Source: Streptomyces sp. NBC_01707 (GTDB taxonomy: Bacteria > Actinomycetota > Actinomycetes > Streptomycetales > Streptomycetaceae). From it: a DNA stretch of 64,000 nt. The stretch covers positions 9,424,001 through 9,488,000 of the forward strand of contig NZ_CP109190.1 in NCBI RefSeq assembly GCF_041438805.1, in the 5' to 3' direction. The translations under genes were made by a program, and so were the position numbers. Below are positions 11,038-22,575 of the stretch, in pieces. Each line of letters begins with the position of its first letter. Position 1 is the stretch's first letter. The notes beneath the pieces were generated by a model. That model had not been told where the DNA came from. It ran no database searches and was given only the letters and a program-made list of their open reading frames with translations.

Positions 11038-14000
11038 CTACTGGTAGGTCACCGTGATCGGGGCGTGGACAGTGTGCCGTGGAGCGGTGATGTTCAGAGT
11101 TCCCGAGGCCGCGTCCCAGCGGTAAGCGTGCGGGGACAAATGTACGCCCGTGGCTGTGACGCGGGTGGGCTCGCTTCCCCCAATGATCGAAAGGGTCCAC
11201 TGACGGTCTTTCACCTGACCGTGGAAGGAGCCCTTTGTGGGGCTGATCGACACCGTGTGGCGCCCGCCGGACTCCTTGTACCGGATCTCAGTGGTGGCAC
11301 TGTGACCCGTGCCCGTGGTGGTCCCGTCGTCCTCGTACAGGCTGGCGGACCCCGAGGCGCCAGCAGCGATGGTGAGTGTGACGTCGGTGAGCGCGCTCCG
11401 GTCGTCATGGGCGACGTCGTGGCTTCGGGTGGGCATGATGCCACCGGCCTTGATGAACACCGGCATTGAGCCCAAGTCGGTGGTGACATCCTGGGTGGTG
11501 CCACCGGTGTAGGTCCTGCCGGTGAAGTAGTCGGTCCACCGGCCGGGTGGGAACCAGACCGAGGTCGTGGTGGAGGTCCCGGGAGTGGTGACGGGAGCGA
11601 CCAGGACGTCGGGGCCGTAGAAGTACTCGCTGCCGGCGTTCGCGTACGCCTGCTGCTCGTCCGGGTACTCCAGGTACATGGGCCGGACGATCGGTACGCC
11701 GGTTCGGTTCGCCTCCTCGGCAAGCGTGTAGGTGTAGGGGACGAGGTTCTCGCGGAGATCGAGGAACTTCTCCGCCGACTCCTTGGCTGCCGCGCCGTAC
11801 TGCCAGGGCAGCCGGTCGCTGTGGTTGCTGTGCAGGCGGTCGACGGGCTGGAAGGTACCGAACTGGACCCAGCGTGCGTACAGGTCGTCGGGCAGCTTGG
11901 TCGTGGTGCGGGTCTGCCCGCCGACGGTGTAGGTCTCCGAGCCCATCAGCCCCGTGGTGTCGTTGTGTCCGCCGATGTCATGGGTGATGGCGGCCATCCC
12001 TGTTGCGGCCGACTCGCTGGGCGTGTAGCCGACTTCGAGCTTCAGTGTTCCCCAGGTGGAGGAGGTGTCGCCGGTGAAGTGCACGGTGGTGCGCTTGTCC
12101 GCCCAAGGACCGGTGGGAAGCGCCTGCTGGCCGCTGTATCCGCCGGCCTGAAGGGAGCCGTAGGCGCGCGAGAGAACGAACCCGCGACCGAGGGTCTTGC
12201 CGGTGGCAGTGGCGTACTGCTGGTTGATCCACGCGTCCGGAGTCACCCCCGGCAGCGAGGACTGCGTTGCGTCACAGCACCAGTCCAGCCACCAGAAGTC
12301 GTTGCCCTGCTGGTCCATGGTCCGATGCAGGTCCATGTATGCCTTGAGCTGGTCGGGGTCGGCGAAGTCGAAGGTGTAGCAGTCGTGTGTGACGCCGGCG
12401 TCCCCAGCACAACCCCCCTTGGTCAGCTTGCCCTTGGCGGTCGACATCGCCTGGGCGAACTGAGGATCGGAGGCGAGGATGCTCGGGTGGACGTTGAGCG
12501 TGTTGTGCAGGCCCTGGGAAGCGGACCAGTCGAAGAAGCCCTTCGGGTCGGGGTACTTGGTGGAGTCCATCTCCCAGCCGCTCCAGGAGTTCACGGCCTT
12601 GAAGTCGGTGTCCGTGACCAGAACGTCGAGCGGGACGCCCTCGGACCGGAACTTCGGCAGGATTGTGTTCTCGTAGTCTGCAGCGGTGCGGTCGATGTAC
12701 TCCGAGTACCAGACGCCGTACGCCCAGCGGGGGAGCAGCGCGGGTGGCCCGGTGAGAGTGGCCAGGTCGGTGAGCCCCTGCTTGTAGTCGTGTCCGTAAC
12801 CGAAGATGTAACCGTCGCGGTACGGCGTGCCGTCGTGGTCGGGGCGTTGGGTGATCTTCTGTGAGGCGGTGTCGTAGAGCGCCGACGGGGTGTCGTCCAG
12901 CAGGTACCAGCCGTCCTGGTTGAGCACGCCGGGCGTGGTCACGGGGGCATCGCCGTTGCCCGTGACGCCGTCGAGTCCGCGGCGATACCCGCCGAGTGCC
13001 ACGTGCGGCGGCGGAGCGGCGGACGTGGGCGCGGCCAGGGAGACGGTGTCCGCGTTCACGTGGCAGCTCGCCGCGTCAGGGCAGTTCAGGGTGATGTCGT
13101 TGGCTCCCGCTTTCAGCGTGATGGGCAGGGAGGCGGCTTCCCACGTGTCCCAGTTCGTCGTCGCGGGGAACGACAGGGTGTCGGAGACGCCGCCGGCGGA
13201 CACAGAGGCGGTACGCGTCTCGTGCTTGCCGTCGCCGCCGACGCCGTTGGCATAGCGGACCCGGAGGGTGTATGTGCCGTCTGCGGGAACTCCCACCACG
13301 TGGGTGGTGAGGCTCGACCCCTTGTCGAGTTCGGCGACGAACCCGCTGCCGGCGTATCCCTTGTGGTCGGTGGCGCCGACTGCGGTTCCGCCGATTCGTG
13401 CGGCCTCCGTCTCGCAGCTCACGCCGAATCGGCAGTCCGTGATCGCGGTGCTGGAGACGGGCGGGTACGCGGCGCCGGCCTGGACCAGCGCGACACTGTC
13501 GATGTTGACGTTGCCCGAGTCCGACGCGGTACGGGTCAGTGTGAGCGTGTGGTGGCCCGCGCCGAGTTGGACGCCTGCGGAGGCAAGGCTCCAGGTGTCC
13601 CAGTTCGTCGTCGCCGGCAGGCTCACCTTCTGCTGCGCGCCGCCGTCCACGGAGAGGGTCAGGGTACGGGTCTGGGCCTGACCGTCGCCGCCGAGGGAAT
13701 TGGCGTACCGAAGGTCGAACCGGTAACTACCGGCGCTGGTGACATCGATGTCAGCGGATACCGAGCTTCCGGTGCCCGTGAATCCGGCGGCGAAGCCGGT
13801 CCCGGTGTAGCCACGGTGATCGGATGCCACGGCGACTCCGCCGGCCTGCAGGCCCTCGGCCTCGCACAGGGCCCCCGGCGCACAGTTCAGGTGCTGCCAG
13901 GGGGTGGCGGTCACCGGGGTGCCGCCGGCCGCCAGTTGCACCGAGAGGTTCTGCGCGTCGAACTGGCCCGAGCCGACCTTGTACCGCAGGGTCATGGCTG

Positions 14001-14319
14001 TGGTTCTGATGGTGAGCCAGCCGCCGGACTCCCGGGCTGTGTAGGCGGCCGGGGTGAAACCGTCGCGGCCGATGGCGTTGAATGTCGGGGCGTCGGTGAA
14101 CTTCCTGTCGCCCGCGTACTCGGAGCGAATCAGCGTCGGCGAGAGAATCTCGAAGCGGGCGTCGCCGGATGAGACGGTCGGAATTCGATGGCTGTGCGTG
14201 CCGTGTGCTGATGCGGATCCCGCACCGGCCAACGTCATGGCGGCGGTGCTCAGTACGGCGGCGAGACCGATCCACTTCCGCAGGGATCTCGATCGTCGCC
14301 TCGCCTGCCGAGGTCTCAT
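11038..14319 (-). CDS. secreted GH31 family glycoside hydrolase with two CBM-like domains
   Basis: This 1093-residue enzyme has a signal peptide (about 1-38), a GH31 N-terminal beta-sandwich and two carbohydrate-binding-like modules of the CBM6/CBM35 type (about 143-282 and 293-428). These are inserted before the catalytic barrel and share the PATTNWDTW strand. The likely nucleophile is D679 (DFWWLDW) and the acid/base D751 (HFTGDTSSTW). A C-terminal GH31 sheet region follows. GH31 enzymes remove alpha-linked glucose, xylose, galactose or GalNAc; the specificity here is not evident. The ATG at 14319 has GGAG upstream; the frame stays open to 14469. It is a neighbour of the GH92 gene and probably part of the same secreted degradation set. 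Confidence 0.92.
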   Translation of the reverse strand: MRPRQARRRSRSLRKWIGLAAVLSTAAMTLAGAGSASAHGTHSHRIPTVSSGDARFEILSPTLIRSEYAGDRKFTDAPTFNAIGRDGFTPAAYTARESGGWLTIRTTAMTLRYKVGSGQFDAQNLSVQLAAGGTPVTATPWQHLNCAPGALCEAEGLQAGGVAVASDHRGYTGTGFAAGFTGTGSSVSADIDVTSAGSYRFDLRYANSLGGDGQAQTRTLTLSVDGGAQQKVSLPATTNWDTWSLASAGVQLGAGHHTLTLTRTASDSGNVNIDSVALVQAGAAYPPVSSTAITDCRFGVSCETEAARIGGTAVGATDHKGYAGSGFVAELDKGSSLTTHVVGVPADGTYTLRVRYANGVGGDGKHETRTASVSAGGVSDTLSFPATTNWDTWEAASLPITLKAGANDITLNCPDAASCHVNADTVSLAAPTSAAPPPHVALGGYRRGLDGVTGNGDAPVTTPGVLNQDGWYLLDDTPSALYDTASQKITQRPDHDGTPYRDGYIFGYGHDYKQGLTDLATLTGPPALLPRWAYGVWYSEYIDRTAADYENTILPKFRSEGVPLDVLVTDTDFKAVNSWSGWEMDSTKYPDPKGFFDWSASQGLHNTLNVHPSILASDPQFAQAMSTAKGKLTKGGCAGDAGVTHDCYTFDFADPDQLKAYMDLHRTMDQQGNDFWWLDWCCDATQSSLPGVTPDAWINQQYATATGKTLGRGFVLSRAYGSLQAGGYSGQQALPTGPWADKRTTVHFTGDTSSTWGTLKLEVGYTPSESAATGMAAITHDIGGHNDTTGLMGSETYTVGGQTRTTTKLPDDLYARWVQFGTFQPVDRLHSNHSDRLPWQYGAAAKESAEKFLDLRENLVPYTYTLAEEANRTGVPIVRPMYLEYPDEQQAYANAGSEYFYGPDVLVAPVTTPGTSTTTSVWFPPGRWTDYFTGRTYTGGTTQDVTTDLGSMPVFIKAGGIMPTRSHDVAHDDRSALTDVTLTIAAGASGSASLYEDDGTTTGTGHSATTEIRYKESGGRHTVSISPTKGSFHGQVKDRQWTLSIIGGSEPTRVTATGVHLSPHAYRWDAASGTLNITAPRHTVHAPITVTYQ

Positions 14320-14417
14320 GGGCAACTCCGTTCTCACGTCGGCCGGGTGGCTTGTCCAGGCCGCACCGGTTGCAGAACGCTGGAGCCGACAGCGTGCTGC
14401 AGTCCACGGCTTTCTAT

Positions 14418-14429
14418 CGTTGAAAATCG
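14418..14429. repeat. CGTTGAAAATCG direct repeat, copy 1
   Basis: First of two identical 12-base elements upstream of the GH31 start codon, 99 bases from it. Possible regulator-binding site; see the second copy. Confidence 0.45.
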
Positions 14430-14484
14430 TGCTTGCGGCATCACAACACGTCCACCGCGCCATGTACATGGGGGTGACTCACAA

Positions 14485-15039: not shown

Positions 15040-18000
15040 CTATCCGCGAGGGATCCACATGGGCTGCCTCCACTCCGTCGCAGGCGCCCAGAATCCGGCG
15101 CCGCCGGCGAACCCTGCTCCGTTGCCTACGCGGTTCCACAGGTCGGATGCTCCGCTGGTGCGGTCACCGCCGTTGCCGCCGGCCGCGACCGGCCGGGCAT
15201 CGTGGTCCGTGGGCTGGAACCCGACCGTGTAGGTCCGGGTGGCCGAACCGTTGGCCGAGGTCACCTTGATGGTGCGGGTGGTGAACCGGGACCCGGTCGA
15301 CGAGAGGATCGAACTGCCCTCGGTGACCTTGACCCGCGCGCCGGGCTGGGCCGGTGTGGCGGAGAGGGCCGGGACATTCTTGTTCTTCGGCCAGTCCACG
15401 ACGTACGTGGACACGGCCGGGTCGAACCCGTCGATCGAAACGCCTCCGACGGTGATCGCCTTGGCGTCGGCGACACCGGCCTTGGTGGCGTCCGAGAAGT
15501 TCTTCACCGTGACCGACCCGTCGGTGTTGACGACGACCTTCGCCGCCAACGCGGCCGCCAGGTTGATGCGTTCCCAGCTCGCTCCGCCGTCCGCGGTGAC
15601 GTCGAGCGGGTACCCGGAGTCCGTCGCGGTCTGCTCGAGGATCTGGGTGCGCTGCTCGGTGGTGAAGCCCGGGAAGGCCGTGATCAGCAGGGCTGCCGCG
15701 TCGGCCGGCGTCTTGAGAGCCTGCCCGGACTTCCCGACCTGGGAGAACCCGTAGGTCAGGCGGCGCGTGTACAGGTCGACGTGCTGCGCCGTGCTCAGAC
15801 CGGCGTAGGAGTCGCCCGCGCAGGCCGCGAGCGTGTCGCCGTATCCCTCCTTCTCGCACTGCGCGAGCAGCACGTTCTCCATTTCGGTGTGGGCCTGCGT
15901 CAGCAGCTTCTCGAAGTCGGGGTCGGCCCACCGGTGTGCCACGGTGGCCTGTGCGCCGATGCGTCCGCCCATGACGTCGAGCGGGTAGTGGAACCCGAGG
16001 ACGATCCGGTTGTTCCCGTACTCCGAGGTGCGGGCGAGGATCGACGGTGCAAGCTCCGGCAGGAGCGTGGCGAGGATGGTCCCGGCTTCGTAGCCGCCGT
16101 AGGTGTGGCCGCTGGGGTACGAGCCGCTGGTGGTGAGGCTGCCGTAGGAGCCGTCCTGCGACTCGTAGATCTCGCCGCCGTCGCCGACGAACCCGAGCCG
16201 CACGTACGGGCGCAGGTAGCCGAAGTGGTCCTTCGCCGCTCCGCCCTTGTCGAGGCCCTTCGTGACGCGGGAGAACAGGGCACTGGTCTTCGGCAGCCGG
16301 CCGCCGCTCAGGGCGTCGTTGTAGATCTGGCCGAGCCGGGAGCCGAGGCCGTCGGCCATCGTGACGGTGGAACTGTTCGTGGCGTCGACCTCGGCCCGGT
16401 CCACCTCCTTCTGCGTCGCCGCGTTGTTGATGCGCACGGCGATCCGGTCGTTCTCAGCAGTGAGCGCGGTGCCGTGCGGCACTTTGGTGTTGGCGCCGAG
16501 GATGCCGGAGCCGAGGTCGTCGAAACCGTTGAGCAGGTCGTAGAAGTAGTCGCTCCCGTCGCCGGTCCCCGGCCACGTGTCCGAAGCGTAGGTCGCGTTC
16601 AACGTGTCGTCCGGGAAGGGGGACGGCTCGTACGCCGGGTCGGAGGCGTCCGCCGCGGCGGACGCCGAGGCGATCGCTGCGGAGTCGTCCGAGGTTCCGG
16701 CCAGGGTCACCGCGGTCACGGTGGCCGTGTGCGTCTTGGCCTTGCCCGCGGTCGTGAGCAGCGCCGTGTCCGTCGTGGCGGGAACGTGCGCGGTGGTTCC
16801 GTCGCCGAGGGCGACGGTGTAGCCGATGACCGGGAAACCGCCGTCGCCGGCCGCCCGCCAGGTCACGCGGACCTGCTTGCCGTCGGTGATCACATCCGTC
16901 ACGGCCGGCTTCTGCGGCGTGCCGCCACCGATCACCACGGGTGCCGTGGCGGCGCTCTGCCGGGAGGTGCCGACCGCGTTCACCGCCTGGACGCGTGCCG
17001 TGTACGACCTGCCGGCCCGCAGCCAGGTGAACGTCGTGCTGCGGCTGTCCGGATCGCCGATCTTGATCTGGTGGCCGTCGCTGAGGGTGATCTTGTAGCC
17101 GGTGACCGGCGAGCCGCCGGTGTCCTCCGGTGCGGACCAGGCGACGGTCAGGCTCGTGCCTGACGAGGTCGCCGACACCGCGTCAGGAGCGGCCGGCACC
17201 GTCCTGGGCTTTGTGATGAGTGCGGACAGGGCATGGTGAAGCGTGTCGTACCGTGCGGTGAGGGTCGCGTCCGTCGACGTGCCGTCCGCGACCGCGGTCT
17301 TCGCCGCGGCGAGTGCCGCGGTGAACTCCCTCCACGACGCGTCCGTGTAGCGGTCGTCAGCGAGGGCCGACGCGGTCGCGACCAGGTCCTCCAGCTTCAG
17401 TCTCGGCAGAGGAACCAGCTGGTTGGCGGCCAGGGTGAGGCTGCGCGTCTGTGTGTCGACCTCGACCTGCGTGGCGTCCTCGGCGTCGGCGAGGGTGCGT
17501 GCGGCGTCGAGTTCGCGCCGGTACACACCGAAGTCGATCGCGTCGTACCGCTCCGCGTCGCCGGAGAGCCCTTCGTACTGGCCGATCGCTTTCCGCAGGG
17601 CGGCCTTGTCCGTGACGGCGGGCGTCTCGACGTGCTTGAAGGTGATCCGGCCCAGGTTCGCGACGTACGGGTGCGAGGAGTCCGGGTTCGTCGTCAGCCG
17701 CAGGTGGACGGCGTGCGTGCCGGTGATCGCCTTGGGCAGCGTCAGGCTCGTCGTCCCTCCTGAGGACCACGCGCTACCCGTGACCGGCAGCGGCACGGTC
17801 GCATACGGCGTGCCGGGGTCGGCCGCGTCGAAGGAGTCCAGGTAGAGCTGGACGGCTGACCCGGTTCCGCAGCGTGCGGAGTTGTTGACGTAGGTGATCG
17901 TGACGGTGCTCTTCGGGGAGTCACCGAAATCGATGTCCCCGTAGTCGACCCACGCTCCGTCGTAGGTGCCGCCGAGGTCGGTGGTGGAACCCGAGCCGGT

Positions 18001-21000
18001 CCAACCGACCGGCTCGCTCTTGAGGCCGCCGCCGCTGTGGGACCGGAACGCGGTGGCGTCGAACCCCACGGGGGCGCCCGCGTCCTGCGACAGCGTCAGC
18101 GAGTAGACATTGCCCACGTAGGGCTGGGCGGCGGTGTGCGTGCCGGAGACGAAGGCCGCGTACACGTCCTGGACGCCGGTGAAGACGTTCGGGTCGAGCT
18201 GCACGGTCGTGGTGGCGATGGTGCCCCAGCCCGATCCGGTGTAGTCGAGAGGGATGTCGACCTTCTTCGCGCCGTCCTTCGAGCCGAGGTGCAGTTCGAT
18301 GTGCGAGTCCGACGCCGCGCGCGACTGGGGCTTGTCGTAGCGGACGGTGACGGTCTCGGCGCCGTTGCGGAGGTCGGTGTCCTTCCACTGCGCCCACGCG
18401 CCGTTCGTCACGTTCTCGAAGATGCCGCTCGTGAGCTTGAGCGGGAGCGAGCCGTCGCCGGTCACGGTGGTGTTCACCGCGGTCAGCGTGGTGAGCGTGG
18501 TCGAGGGCGACGAGGAGACCTCGTACGGCGAGAACTGGTGCCAGTCGAAGTTGGACACCCACTGCTGGCCGGCCGGGGCGTGGAACACGAACGTCGCGCT
18601 CTTCGCGTCCAGCAGGGCGTCCGGGTCGGTGACGGCGGCCTGCACCGTGGTGTAGTACTGCCAGCCGCCGGTTCCGGGGAGCTGGACGGTGGCGACGACA
18701 GGGCCGTCGGCGGCGCCGGCGTGGATGTCGACACTGCTCGGCTTCGCGTTCGTCGCCTGCGAGTTCGCGTAGCGGACGGAGATGCTGCGCGGGGCGACGC
18801 CGCCGAAGTCCAGCTTGGTGAACCGCTCCCACGATCCCTCGGTGACGCCGCCGAGGTCGCCGTCCGAGTTGTTCCGCTCGCTGACGAGGCTGGGGCCCTC
18901 CTTCTCGTCGGGGTCCTCGGCCTGCAGGACGGCGTAACCGCCCTCGTCGATGGTCAGCGCGTCGATGGCGGAGTGCAGCGCGTCGTCCGCGGCCATGATC
19001 GTGCCCGTCGCCGAGGTGGTGTCCGCGAGGACGGTCCGCGCGCGTTCGAGCGCCGACCGGAACAGACTCCAGGAGCCGTCGGAGTAGTTGCCACTGCGCA
19101 CCAGGGACGCCTGGTCGACGAGCGCGCCCAGGGCCTTGCGGTGCGCTGCGGCGGCGGAGATGACGAGCGGGTCGGTCGGGGATATCCCGGTGCCGCTCAC
19201 CGTCGAGGCCCGCACGCCGTGGGCGAAGGCCGCGTCGTGGAACGTGATGCCGAAGCGTGCGTCGACCTTCGCGGTGCCGGTGAGCGACAGCGTCGCCGTG
19301 CGTGAGCCGCTGACGCGCAGGTCCGCCGTGACACCGCCTGGCAGGCCGGTCACGGTCGCCGCCCCGGTCTTGGTGAGGCTGGTTCCCTTGCGGGCGGCGA
19401 AGGACGCCGGTCCGTCCAGGGTGAGTTTCACGCTGTCGTCGAGGGTGCCGTTCTCGGCGGTGGCGACGGTGCCCGGGTGGGCGGAGACGACGGTGTCGCC
19501 CTTGCCCGTTCCCGCGTCACCGTCACCCGTGTCGCCGCCGTCGGTGTTCAGCGAGTACGCGGGCTCCGTGTGGGCGCCCCACTGGGAGGGCTTGGAACCC
19601 ATGGTGAAGTCCAGGGTCCCGCCGGAGATGATCTGGGAGTAGTCGAGCCACGTGTTGTCGAACCGCTTGCCGTTGAGGGTCGCGCTCTGCACGTAGTAGT
19701 TGCTCGGAGACACGCCGTCGGCCTTCACCGTGAACCGGCTGCCGTTGGCGTAGGTGATCGTCGTGGAGTCGAAGAACGGGCTGCCGATCTGGAACTGGCT
19801 GGAACCGGCAGTCACCGGGAACAGGCCCAGGGCGGCACCGACGAACATGGTCGACATGGTGCCGGCGTCGTTGTCCATGGTCGGCAGGAAGCCGTTCGGG
19901 GAGAGCTTGTAGACCTGGGTCTTGACCGGCGGGGTGAACTGGCCACCGGAGCTGGGCGCCTCGTTCGTGGAGCCCGTCGCGATGTAGCGGTTCCAGGTCG
20001 TGCCGGTGTAGATGGCACGTACCCACTTCTGCGTCAGGCTCGGCTCACCGACGTAGTTGAAGAGGTACGGGGCCTGCAGGTCGATCTCGTTCGCGTTGGA
20101 GTGCAGCATGGTCGATCCGTCGTCGACACTGGAGTCCTCGCCGAACATGTGCCTGACCGCGGCCTTGCCGGCCTTCTCGCCGCCCATGGCCTCGATGAGG
20201 CCGCCCATGTTGTACGCGTCGTACCAGTGGTACTGCCAGAGCGTGCCCTGGTAGAGGCCTGCCGCCTCGAACTTCTCGTAATCGGCGCTCTGCCAGTCGC
20301 CGTTCGCGGCGCGCGGGGTGAGCAGACCGACCTCGGTGCCGTCGGCCGCGGTCCAGGCGCCGGACTTCACGAGGTTGTCGATCGCCATCGTCGACCGGGT
20401 GCGGAGCTTCTTCGCGTCGTCCCTCTTGCCGAGCGCGTCGGCGATGACGGACAGCGCCCACTGGTCGTAGCCGCGCTGGACGGTCGTACCGGGATCCCCG
20501 GTGACGTATCCCTGTCGCAACTGCGCCCCCGTGTAGTAACCGGAGTAGGACAGCAGTGCCGGGTACGCCTCGTCCAGCCGGTCGAAGTTCTTGAAGCCCT
20601 TCGACAGCGCGTCGGCGACCAGCACGGCCGAGCGCTCCCAGCGCACGGTCGGCACGGAATGGGTGATGCCGCCGAGGCTCTTGCCTGAGGTACGCGTGTC
20701 GGCGAAGAGCTCGATCAGCGACTGGATCATGTCCCGGTAGGTGGCCGGGTCGATGTAGGCCTCGACGGAGTACTTACGGAAGTCGTCCCAGGTGGACCAG
20801 CCGTCGTAGTACGTGAACCCGTTCGCCTTGTGCACCGCACCATCGGCGCCGCGGTACGTGCCGCTGGTGCTGGTGGCGTTCACCGGCAGGGCGTACATGC
20901 GGTACAGGTGCGTGTAGAACTCCTTGGTGAGCGTCGACCCGGGGTCGGACTTCGCCGAGGAGCGCACCGCGACAGCGCCGAGCGCGCGGTTCCAGTCCGC

Positions 21001-22032
21001 CTTCGTCTGCGCGCGCGCCTGGTCGAAGGTGAGGTCGCCCACCTCGTTTTGCTGGTCGGTCGCGGCCTGTTCCGCGCTGATCGGCGACAGCGTGATGCGC
21101 AGTTCGATGTCGTTCCCGGCAGACTTGTCGAACCCGAGGACGGCGCCGGTGTCGGACCCGTCCTGCGTGGTCGCGTCGCTGAGCTTGCCGTCGTTGCCCC
21201 AGCTCTTCAGAGAGGTCACGGGGGCGTTCGTGGTGGCGTTGTAGTACAGCTGGTACGAGGCGCCGTTGAACGATCCTGCGATGAGCCCGGCGATCGAGGT
21301 GGTCCCGTCCGGGAGCGTCGTCGCCTTCATGGTCGAGCGGGTGCGGCTGGTGAAGTTGTTCGCGAGGTCGAGGACGAGCTCGGGATCCGACCCGGAGGGG
21401 AAGCTGTAGCGCTGCAGTGCCGTGCGCGTTGTCGCAGTCATCTCCGCGTCGATGGTCCCGGAGTCCTGCTTCACCGACGACCCGGTTCCGGAGACGGCGC
21501 CGAGCCCCACCCCGTAGTGGCCGGGCGTCGCGGTCTCGTCGTCGTGGCTGTACGCGTGCGCGTACGTGCTGGGGGCAGGGCGCTTGTCGTACTGCACGGA
21601 GGTCGGGACGACCAACAGGTCGCCACCGCCTCCCGAGCCGCCGACGCCGTCGAGGTTCGTCGCGGTGAACCCGGCGATGTGGTCCTCGTTGTAGTCGTAC
21701 CCGGTGTGGTTGCGGTTCGGAGTTGTCAGCGGGTTGACCTTGGCCAGACCGTGGGGCGCCTGCGCGCCCGGCAGGTCGTTGCCGTCGTCGCCGGCGGTCG
21801 ATACGAACGGGTCGACGAGCTTCGTGTAGTCCGCGCCGCCGGATGTCCCTGCGGACCCCGCGGATGTGGTCGGGACGGGCAGTGCTGCGGCTGTCACGCC
21901 ACCGGCCAGTGTGGCGAAGCCGAGCGCGCCGGCGAGCAGCGTGGCGACTGCCGTGCGCAGTTGCCGACGATGCCTGCGGGCGGGTCTCGGAAGGATCACG
22001 CGAGGCGTGAGGACATGGGATCTGATGGGCAC
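15040..22032 (-). CDS. secreted GH92 alpha-mannosidase fused to PAP2 acid phosphatase
   Basis: This giant secreted protein has about 2330 residues. Domains in order: signal peptide (to about 52); GH92 alpha-mannosidase (about 70-825) with WDDFRK, ANEIDLQAPYLF and DNDAGTMSTMFV motifs, where E649 aligns with the catalytic acid; a FIVAR helix repeat (about 960-1025); three CBM-like sandwich modules (about 1030-1460); two FIVAR repeats; two fibronectin type III domains (about 1612-1790); a PAP2 phosphatase domain (about 1805-2060) with KDHFGYLRP, SYPSGHTY and NRIVLGFHYPLD; and a Cadherin-like tail. The PAP2 triad K-RP, PSGH, R-H-D is complete. The GTG at 22032 has GGAG seven bases upstream; an in-frame ATG at 22047 has none. 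It probably removes mannose and phosphate from glycans. Confidence 0.92.
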   Translation of the reverse strand: MPIRSHVLTPRVILPRPARRHRRQLRTAVATLLAGALGFATLAGGVTAAALPVPTTSAGSAGTSGGADYTKLVDPFVSTAGDDGNDLPGAQAPHGLAKVNPLTTPNRNHTGYDYNEDHIAGFTATNLDGVGGSGGGGDLLVVPTSVQYDKRPAPSTYAHAYSHDDETATPGHYGVGLGAVSGTGSSVKQDSGTIDAEMTATTRTALQRYSFPSGSDPELVLDLANNFTSRTRSTMKATTLPDGTTSIAGLIAGSFNGASYQLYYNATTNAPVTSLKSWGNDGKLSDATTQDGSDTGAVLGFDKSAGNDIELRITLSPISAEQAATDQQNEVGDLTFDQARAQTKADWNRALGAVAVRSSAKSDPGSTLTKEFYTHLYRMYALPVNATSTSGTYRGADGAVHKANGFTYYDGWSTWDDFRKYSVEAYIDPATYRDMIQSLIELFADTRTSGKSLGGITHSVPTVRWERSAVLVADALSKGFKNFDRLDEAYPALLSYSGYYTGAQLRQGYVTGDPGTTVQRGYDQWALSVIADALGKRDDAKKLRTRSTMAIDNLVKSGAWTAADGTEVGLLTPRAANGDWQSADYEKFEAAGLYQGTLWQYHWYDAYNMGGLIEAMGGEKAGKAAVRHMFGEDSSVDDGSTMLHSNANEIDLQAPYLFNYVGEPSLTQKWVRAIYTGTTWNRYIATGSTNEAPSSGGQFTPPVKTQVYKLSPNGFLPTMDNDAGTMSTMFVGAALGLFPVTAGSSQFQIGSPFFDSTTITYANGSRFTVKADGVSPSNYYVQSATLNGKRFDNTWLDYSQIISGGTLDFTMGSKPSQWGAHTEPAYSLNTDGGDTGDGDAGTGKGDTVVSAHPGTVATAENGTLDDSVKLTLDGPASFAARKGTSLTKTGAATVTGLPGGVTADLRVSGSRTATLSLTGTAKVDARFGITFHDAAFAHGVRASTVSGTGISPTDPLVISAAAAHRKALGALVDQASLVRSGNYSDGSWSLFRSALERARTVLADTTSATGTIMAADDALHSAIDALTIDEGGYAVLQAEDPDEKEGPSLVSERNNSDGDLGGVTEGSWERFTKLDFGGVAPRSISVRYANSQATNAKPSSVDIHAGAADGPVVATVQLPGTGGWQYYTTVQAAVTDPDALLDAKSATFVFHAPAGQQWVSNFDWHQFSPYEVSSSPSTTLTTLTAVNTTVTGDGSLPLKLTSGIFENVTNGAWAQWKDTDLRNGAETVTVRYDKPQSRAASDSHIELHLGSKDGAKKVDIPLDYTGSGWGTIATTTVQLDPNVFTGVQDVYAAFVSGTHTAAQPYVGNVYSLTLSQDAGAPVGFDATAFRSHSGGGLKSEPVGWTGSGSTTDLGGTYDGAWVDYGDIDFGDSPKSTVTITYVNNSARCGTGSAVQLYLDSFDAADPGTPYATVPLPVTGSAWSSGGTTSLTLPKAITGTHAVHLRLTTNPDSSHPYVANLGRITFKHVETPAVTDKAALRKAIGQYEGLSGDAERYDAIDFGVYRRELDAARTLADAEDATQVEVDTQTRSLTLAANQLVPLPRLKLEDLVATASALADDRYTDASWREFTAALAAAKTAVADGTSTDATLTARYDTLHHALSALITKPRTVPAAPDAVSATSSGTSLTVAWSAPEDTGGSPVTGYKITLSDGHQIKIGDPDSRSTTFTWLRAGRSYTARVQAVNAVGTSRQSAATAPVVIGGGTPQKPAVTDVITDGKQVRVTWRAAGDGGFPVIGYTVALGDGTTAHVPATTDTALLTTAGKAKTHTATVTAVTLAGTSDDSAAIASASAAADASDPAYEPSPFPDDTLNATYASDTWPGTGDGSDYFYDLLNGFDDLGSGILGANTKVPHGTALTAENDRIAVRINNAATQKEVDRAEVDATNSSTVTMADGLGSRLGQIYNDALSGGRLPKTSALFSRVTKGLDKGGAAKDHFGYLRPYVRLGFVGDGGEIYESQDGSYGSLTTSGSYPSGHTYGGYEAGTILATLLPELAPSILARTSEYGNNRIVLGFHYPLDVMGGRIGAQATVAHRWADPDFEKLLTQAHTEMENVLLAQCEKEGYGDTLAACAGDSYAGLSTAQHVDLYTRRLTYGFSQVGKSGQALKTPADAAALLITAFPGFTTEQRTQILEQTATDSGYPLDVTADGGASWERINLAAALAAKVVVNTDGSVTVKNFSDATKAGVADAKAITVGGVSIDGFDPAVSTYVVDWPKNKNVPALSATPAQPGARVKVTEGSSILSSTGSRFTTRTIKVTSANGSATRTYTVGFQPTDHDARPVAAGGNGGDRTSGASDLWNRVGNGAGFAGGAGFWAPATEWRQPMWIPRG

Positions 22033-22075
22033 AAACGTCTCCAGCATCGTGATAAGCACGCACCGTCGAGGGAAA

Positions 22076-22087
22076 GACAACGTTGTC
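22076..22087. promoter_or_regulatory. palindromic operator upstream of GH92-PAP2
   Basis: GACAACGTTGTC, a perfect palindrome 44 bases upstream of the GTG start. It has the size and CG centre of LacI-family operators that control sugar genes in actinobacteria. No LacI gene is in the window, so the regulator would be encoded elsewhere. Confidence 0.5.
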
Positions 22088-22575
22088 AAAGTGCGGGAGC
22101 ATGCAAACGGCGGTGGGCATACGGGATCGCACCCGCCACGCTCACAGCCGTCCGCCATGAGACATGGAGAAGGCGTACAGGCGGCAAACAGACTTCGTAC
22201 AGAAGGTACGGGGTCCCGGTCGCTGCCCGCCCGCGGAGCTCCTCAATCACCCTGACTCCCCGTTGGGGTTGGCGAACGGTAACAGGAAGGGTGCCGGATC
22301 GTCCGCACCCGGCTCAAGGCAATGTGTGGCGCGAGCTGATGAGCGTTGCAGCGAAACGTCATCACAGGGCCCCCTCCCGGCGCGTCGCCCGAGCGCCGCA
22401 GCCGGGCCCGCGTTTCCCTTGCAGGCAGCATGATCACCTGCCCCGAGGTCGACGATCCGCAGCGCCCTTGGCGGCACGCTTGCCGTCCGCCCTGCGGACC
22501 CTGCTGGCGACTCGGCGCCGGCAGGCCCGGCGCCTCGTCCAAGGGTACTGTCACGTGACGGTGTAACTGATCGTT
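22088..22575. other. gene-free stretch
   Basis: Upstream region of the GH92-PAP2 gene running into an IS remnant. Apart from the operator at its left end I see no gene or structure. Confidence 0.45.

Follow-up and report, generated by a model that had tools for sequence, protein, structure and literature searches.

The 64,000-nucleotide stretch of the Streptomyces sp. NBC_01707 genome analysed here (contig NZ_CP109190.1, positions 9,424,001 to 9,488,000; hereafter the window, whose own numbering is used for coordinates) carries on its reverse strand, at 15040-22032, a gene for a 2330-residue protein with a GH92 glycoside hydrolase at its N-terminal end and a PAP2 acid phosphatase at its C-terminal end. 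With a probability of roughly 0.7, we regard this protein as a secreted, carbohydrate-binding enzyme that would act in two steps on phosphorylated mannan. The grounds for this reading are the fusion itself, the identity of the GH92 half as a CcMan5-type enzyme whose acid position is occupied by Gln, a phosphatase signature that is intact but for one residue, and the recurrent pairing of this GH92 type with a phosphatase; both activities, their order, the substrate and the benefit of the fusion are what we infer. The fusion is present in many actinobacteria, and time and again GH92 proteins of the CcMan5 type have a phosphatase, from one or other of two unrelated families, as fusion partner or as the product of a neighbouring gene.

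By analogy with CcMan5, the N-terminal GH92 would first remove the terminal mannose from Man-alpha-1-phosphate-6-Man (Man-P-Man). Gln595, at the position of the ordinary acid, would avoid repelling the phosphate, and a Glu acid would not be needed, since phosphate is a good leaving group in its own right. The C-terminal PAP2 would then strip the phosphate newly exposed as a 6-phosphomonoester, and the chain, now neutral, would be open to trimming by ordinary alpha-mannosidases. The CBM6 and CBM35 domains would tether the two active sites to the same glycan; likewise, the fusion, the operon-like gene order seen in other lineages, and the carbohydrate-binding domains may serve to keep both steps on one substrate. 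An order of uncapping and then dephosphorylation had been put forward in the first-pass annotation; it fits a CcMan5-type GH92 with Gln and the recurrent phosphatase pairing, but the assignment of Glu649 that accompanied it was wrong.

The reading frame is uninterrupted. From the GTG at 22032 it comprises 2330 codons with no internal stop, neither within nor between the two halves, and it stays open to an ATG at 22158, from which 2372 codons are counted (15040-22158). Together with the Pfam matches, this confirms that GH92 and PAP2 sit at opposite ends of a single protein, as the first-pass annotation had described. An assembly join was considered and rejected, because the order GH92 then PAP2 recurs in many independent records (165 of the 192 proteins collected, including that of the window). 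Residues 1-50 (21883-22032), read from the translation, are arginine-rich and then hydrophobic, as in an export signal, and the protein is probably secreted.

The GH92 half has the two-domain fold of the solved GH92 enzymes. Its N-terminal domain (PF17678) spans residues 72-316 (21085-21819; 171/34.5, scores being given here as bits/gathering cut-off, which every domain reported exceeds), and its catalytic domain (PF07971) residues 322 to about 830 (19543-21069; 288/24.6, the end being placed from the CcMan5 alignment); TIGR01180 is also matched (279.5/249.55). Among solved GH92 enzymes the nearest is CcMan5, and the two share Gln at the general-acid position, where ordinary GH92 enzymes have Glu: Gln595 (codon CAG, 20248-20250) aligns with Gln536 (chain position) of CcMan5, read directly in the alignment. 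Judged by its sequence, the GH92 half is thus a CcMan5-type enzyme with a natural Glu-to-Gln change. Gln536 of CcMan5 is reported to be a natural change of the same kind (Tiels et al. 2012). In Asp720-Asn-Asp722 (19867-19875), two Asp columns, both conserved across the CcMan5-type loci, are assigned as the GH92 base; the D-x-D spacing suggests that they correspond to Asp642 and Asp644 of Bt3990, as numbered in PMC10167667.

The first-pass annotation had taken Glu649 (20086-20088) as the normal catalytic acid. The acid column is that of residue 595, and the column of Glu649 contains Gln in 32 of 66 other GH92 genes. An ordinary alpha-mannosidase, as Glu649 had suggested, is therefore very improbable even though the GH92 Pfam and TIGR01180 models are matched above their cut-offs; according to PMC10167667, acid-to-Gln variants of ordinary GH92 enzymes lose most of their activity. 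It could equally be argued that Gln at this position marks a lost enzyme and that one half is catalytically dead, acting as a binding domain; however, this too we consider very unlikely, since CcMan5, which has this Gln too, acts on yeast-type Man-P-Man (PMC5930347), the Asp pair is conserved, and 168 of the 169 PAP2-bearing proteins collected show the phosphatase signature. Gln alone was rejected as a sufficient mark of uncapping, given that four of 66 control GH92 genes carry it. These four (L143, L145, L168 and L170) belong to Streptomyces, the genus of the window, and lie outside the CcMan5 type; their acid motif is FAQGTSATY and, once, FDQATGYQY. In yet another GH92 enzyme the general acid is E494; the solved structure 7fe2 is, by its PDB title, the E494Q mutant of that enzyme.

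The PAP2 region covers residues 1800-2100 (15733-16635), with a PF01569 core at 15946-16242 (36.5/27.2) that upholds the C-terminal domain call. A five-sequence profile matched solved acid phosphatases at values from 1e-19 to 1e-9 (9qcj, 1iw8 and 1d2t at about 1e-19, PhoN at 1e-10). The signature, K-x6-RP-x30-PSGH-x31-NR-x5-H-x3-D, lies at residues 1934-2019 (15976-16233), so the motifs K-x6-RP, PSGH and R-x5-H-x3-D of the first-pass annotation are all in place; compared with the usual form, SR-x5-H-x3-D, Asn replaces Ser before the Arg and all other residues are present. These similarities suggest a relative of the class A non-specific acid phosphatases (PhoN, PhoC and the E. blattae enzyme; 1d2t, 9qcj, 2akc), with which it has the PAP2 superfamily and the signature residues other than that Ser in common. 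In contrast to these free enzymes of about 250 residues, the PAP2 of the window is a domain of a 2330-residue protein and has Asn in place of the Ser of the SR motif. The score of the PAP2 half against the PhoC equivalog NF045654 is 56.7, below its cut-off of 430 bits.

The domains that the first-pass annotation had placed between the two halves were all detected with Pfam: FIVAR at residues 966-1027 (18952-19137; 41/29.2), CBM6 (CBM_6) at residues 1037-1168 (18529-18924; 153/28.9), the best of three stretches, a CBM35-like domain (CBM_35_2) at residues 1206-1288 (18169-18417; 52/23), the best of two, and fibronectin III (fn3) at residues 1615-1696 (16945-17190; 68/25), also the best of two.

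The fusion of the window is no one-off. The 192 proteins collected (120 listed of 196 matches and 120 listed of 346, overlapping, plus that of the window) include 165 with the order GH92-PAP2, 2 with PAP2-GH92, 23 with GH92 and no PAP2, some of them on short contigs, and 2 with PAP2 and no GH92, both on short contigs. Since selection was by likeness to the PAP2 of the window or to a GH92 of Bifidobacterium, the figure of 165 of 192 is not a frequency. Gln occupies the acid position in all 190 GH92-bearing members, and the named hosts of the fusion further include Micromonospora, Kribbella, Actinoplanes, Leifsonia, Schumannella and Cellulomonas soli. A scan of contigs, in which loci were chosen through CcMan5-like peptides and not through phosphatases, gave 91 relatives, of which the best 80 yielded 78 loci, some with short flanks. 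Gln was found in all 78, and GH92 followed by PAP2 in the same frame in 38 (Streptomyces, Actinacidiphila, Kitasatospora and Mycetocola; PAP2 threshold 1e-3); one further locus, L071, has this order with a broken frame. The reversed order is intact in two proteins, P0124 of Bifidobacterium fermentum and P0123, while in Bifidobacterium jacchi (L068) PAP2 precedes the GH92 N-terminal domain in one frame and the remaining GH92 is in another. Broken frames, either real or assembly errors, were seen in the CcMan5-type genes of L068, L070, L071 and L101.

In genome samples the CcMan5 type was found in 16 of 392 Streptomyces genomes and in 6 of 394 across the class. Fourteen of the 16 Streptomyces frames are 2218 residues or longer, one near a contig end has 1890 and one has only 1411; in four of these genomes PAP2 was observed directly, and in the others it was deduced from frame length. 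The genome of the window (9.9 Mb) has six GH92 loci, i.e., the fusion, four full-length genes and one in pieces (contig positions 8465737-8466332), and only the fusion is in one frame with a PAP2 match.

A second kind of pairing was found among the unfused loci. In 20 of the 38 unfused CcMan5-type loci a purple acid phosphatase gene lies upstream on the same strand (threshold 1e-10); these are 7 of 8 Microbacterium, 2 of 2 Promicromonospora and 8 of 8 Paenibacillus loci, plus Cohnella, Gracilibacillus and Bacillus. None was detected near the 38 single-frame fusions within the fetched flanks. The six purple acid phosphatases scanned all have PF16656 and PF00149, with CBM6 or PA14 besides; in two Microbacterium members and one from Promicromonospora the phosphatase itself bears CBM6. 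Among Paenibacillaceae, 46 of 394 genomes hold a CcMan5-type GH92, and in every one of the 40 loci fetched the GH92 gene is preceded on its own strand by the phosphatase gene; five genomes already examined and a partial match were left out, three of the contigs, judged by length, were already among the earlier loci, and the purple-phosphatase model was itself built from CcMan5-type loci. The same GH92 type is accompanied by a phosphatase here as in the fusion of the window, but the phosphatase is of an unrelated family and is encoded by a separate gene. This pairing is a separate, non-homologous solution. In L084 (7660-9375) and similar Paenibacillus and Cohnella loci, a conserved gene for an S-layer homology protein of about 570 residues separates the purple acid phosphatase gene from that of the GH92 (a cluster of seven loci, one of them scanned), and this protein may serve as the cell-surface anchor of the system.

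By comparison, only two of 59 loci of other GH92 genes, both from Cellulosimicrobium, contain either phosphatase (threshold 1e-5). The controls were hand-picked for contig room (47 Streptomyces, 6 Cellulosimicrobium, 2 Isoptericola, 2 Promicromonospora, 3 Bacillota and 0 Microbacterium); the sixtieth, L181, has no phosphatase match and was dropped, as it also holds a CcMan5-type gene. The Fisher p of 6e-20 was computed without regard to relatedness, and the phosphatase thresholds differ between the sets (1e-3 for fused frames, 1e-10 for purple phosphatases and 1e-5 for controls). A separate gene of the PAP2 subfamily (E <= 1e-40) occurs in 6 of 24 unfused actinobacterial genomes, three of them Cellulosimicrobium, versus 5 of 388 class-sample genomes that lack the CcMan5 type; the class sample was scored on six candidates per genome, and the Fisher test used 391 and not 388. 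In Cellulosimicrobium L183 (4686-14305) and L186 such a gene comes immediately after ordinary GH92 genes, which form a tandem pair in L183, and the CcMan5-type gene of the genome lies elsewhere.

The PAP2 tree places the C-terminal fusions in one group (90/93) and the N-terminal fusions in another (100/98), joined at 81/98, with 17 stand-alone domains outside the fused groups under midpoint rooting. The GH92 tree, made with a quick method, places the Bifidobacterium forms among unfused proteins, and the branch that separates them from the C-terminal fusions has a support of 81. Three Streptomyces rows without PAP2 fall inside the fused group and are likely cases of loss; two rows from short contigs that also lack PAP2 fall there too and may be cut. 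There are certainly two arrangements, with PAP2 at the C-terminus or at the N-terminus, and they represent either two fusions or one fusion that was later rearranged. We lean towards the view that a dedicated system to uncap and strip Man-P-Man was built more than once, with PAP2 at the C-terminus (Streptomyces, Micromonospora, Kribbella, Leifsonia and others), at the N-terminus (Bifidobacterium), or with the GH92 beside a purple acid phosphatase (Paenibacillaceae, Microbacterium and Promicromonospora), and that the protein of the window would carry out both steps on one chain, without releasing a mannose-6-phosphate glycan.

Several observations weigh against a two-step enzyme. A few Streptomyces lack the PAP2 part (one of the 16 CcMan5-type genomes and two proteins), and the genome with the 1411-residue frame has no PAP2-subfamily gene at E <= 1e-20; therefore, the phosphatase seems dispensable there. 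Eighteen of the 78 CcMan5-type loci have neither phosphatase partner in the fetched flanks, 12 of them from Cellulosimicrobium and its close kin; when 13 of these 18 genomes were tested, a separate PAP2 gene of the same subfamily was found in five and none in eight. The four Gln-bearing control genes have no phosphatase of either type nearby. Moreover, a Foldseek search with the PAP2 model returned no match at E <= 0.001, the AlphaFold2 model, of PAP2 plus the C-terminal part built from 22 sequences, being poor (pLDDT 60). Finally, stand-alone proteins are frequent in the PAP2 subfamily (120 of 230 matches listed).

The alternative that survives best, although we hold it to be unlikely, keeps the two-step chemistry and changes the substrate, from yeast phosphomannan to another mannose-1-phosphodiester, such as mannose-phosphate in bacterial or glycosylphosphatidylinositol-like polymers or Man-P-Ser. 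The chemistry of CcMan5 would require only a mannose-1-phosphate phosphodiester, the hosts are varied, and the genes near the fusion give no hint of the substrate. A GH31 enzyme with CBM6/CBM35 (11038-14469) adjoins the fusion gene, and a LuxR-type regulator and subtilases are further neighbours; at the threshold used these neighbours are not conserved across the 78 loci, where GH31 does not stand beside the GH92 and the LuxR-type gene is common to just one other locus, L055. On the other side, CcMan5-type relatives occur in Rarobacter and Cellulosimicrobium, which are known as yeast-lysing bacteria. The single characterised relative acts on the yeast-type diester (PMC5930347).

Slightly less probable is that PAP2 serves as a general secreted acid phosphatase for phosphate scavenging, acting on many phosphomonoesters and taking no part in the GH92 reaction. 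Class A acid phosphatases have a broad substrate range, members of the PAP2 subfamily stand alone in Streptomyces, Clavibacter, Microbacterium and others, and one, P0295 (1113 residues; possibly another phosphoglycan enzyme), is joined to GH97 domains (PF10566, PF14508) and not to GH92. However, in 41 Streptomyces genomes the subfamily was matched in a GH92 frame only for two CcMan5-type genes and not for about 85 other GH92 genes, and other lineages pair the same GH92 type with a different phosphatase family. As weak evidence in the same direction, no PHO-box-like repeat was found at 14 of 18 positions in the 900 bases upstream; at that threshold the whole window has 18 such sites.

Two characterised GH92 enzymes serve to place the fusion among known systems. 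CcMan5, or CcGH92_5, of Cellulosimicrobium cellulans (2xsg, 4aq0; PMC5930347) has no phosphatase domain, unlike the protein of the window, and in some genomes of its hosts a PAP2-subfamily gene is found elsewhere, beside ordinary GH92 genes. NnGH92 of Neobacillus novalis (7nsn) also combines GH92 with carbohydrate-binding modules and is active on yeast mannan; nevertheless, it is an ordinary alpha-1,2-mannosidase with Glu944 as the acid, and no phosphatase is among its domains named in PMC10167667.

The uncapping of Man-P-Man is, according to PMC5992200 (citing Tiels et al.), a route to mannose-6-phosphate glycans on lysosomal enzymes made in yeast. Full-text literature searches, judged by titles and the beginnings of abstracts and with most subscription journals outside their coverage, gave no description of a GH92-phosphatase pairing or of a natural remover of the exposed phosphate. 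The CcMan5-type proteins collected here would be new candidate uncapping enzymes and, for use in enzyme therapy, the phosphatase half would be the part to omit. A function is suggested for at least the 190 GH92 proteins collected, among which many of the named ones are annotated as glycoside hydrolase domain-containing protein and some as acid phosphatase. The recurrent pairing with two unrelated phosphatase families would offer a directly testable answer to the question of what removes the exposed phosphate.
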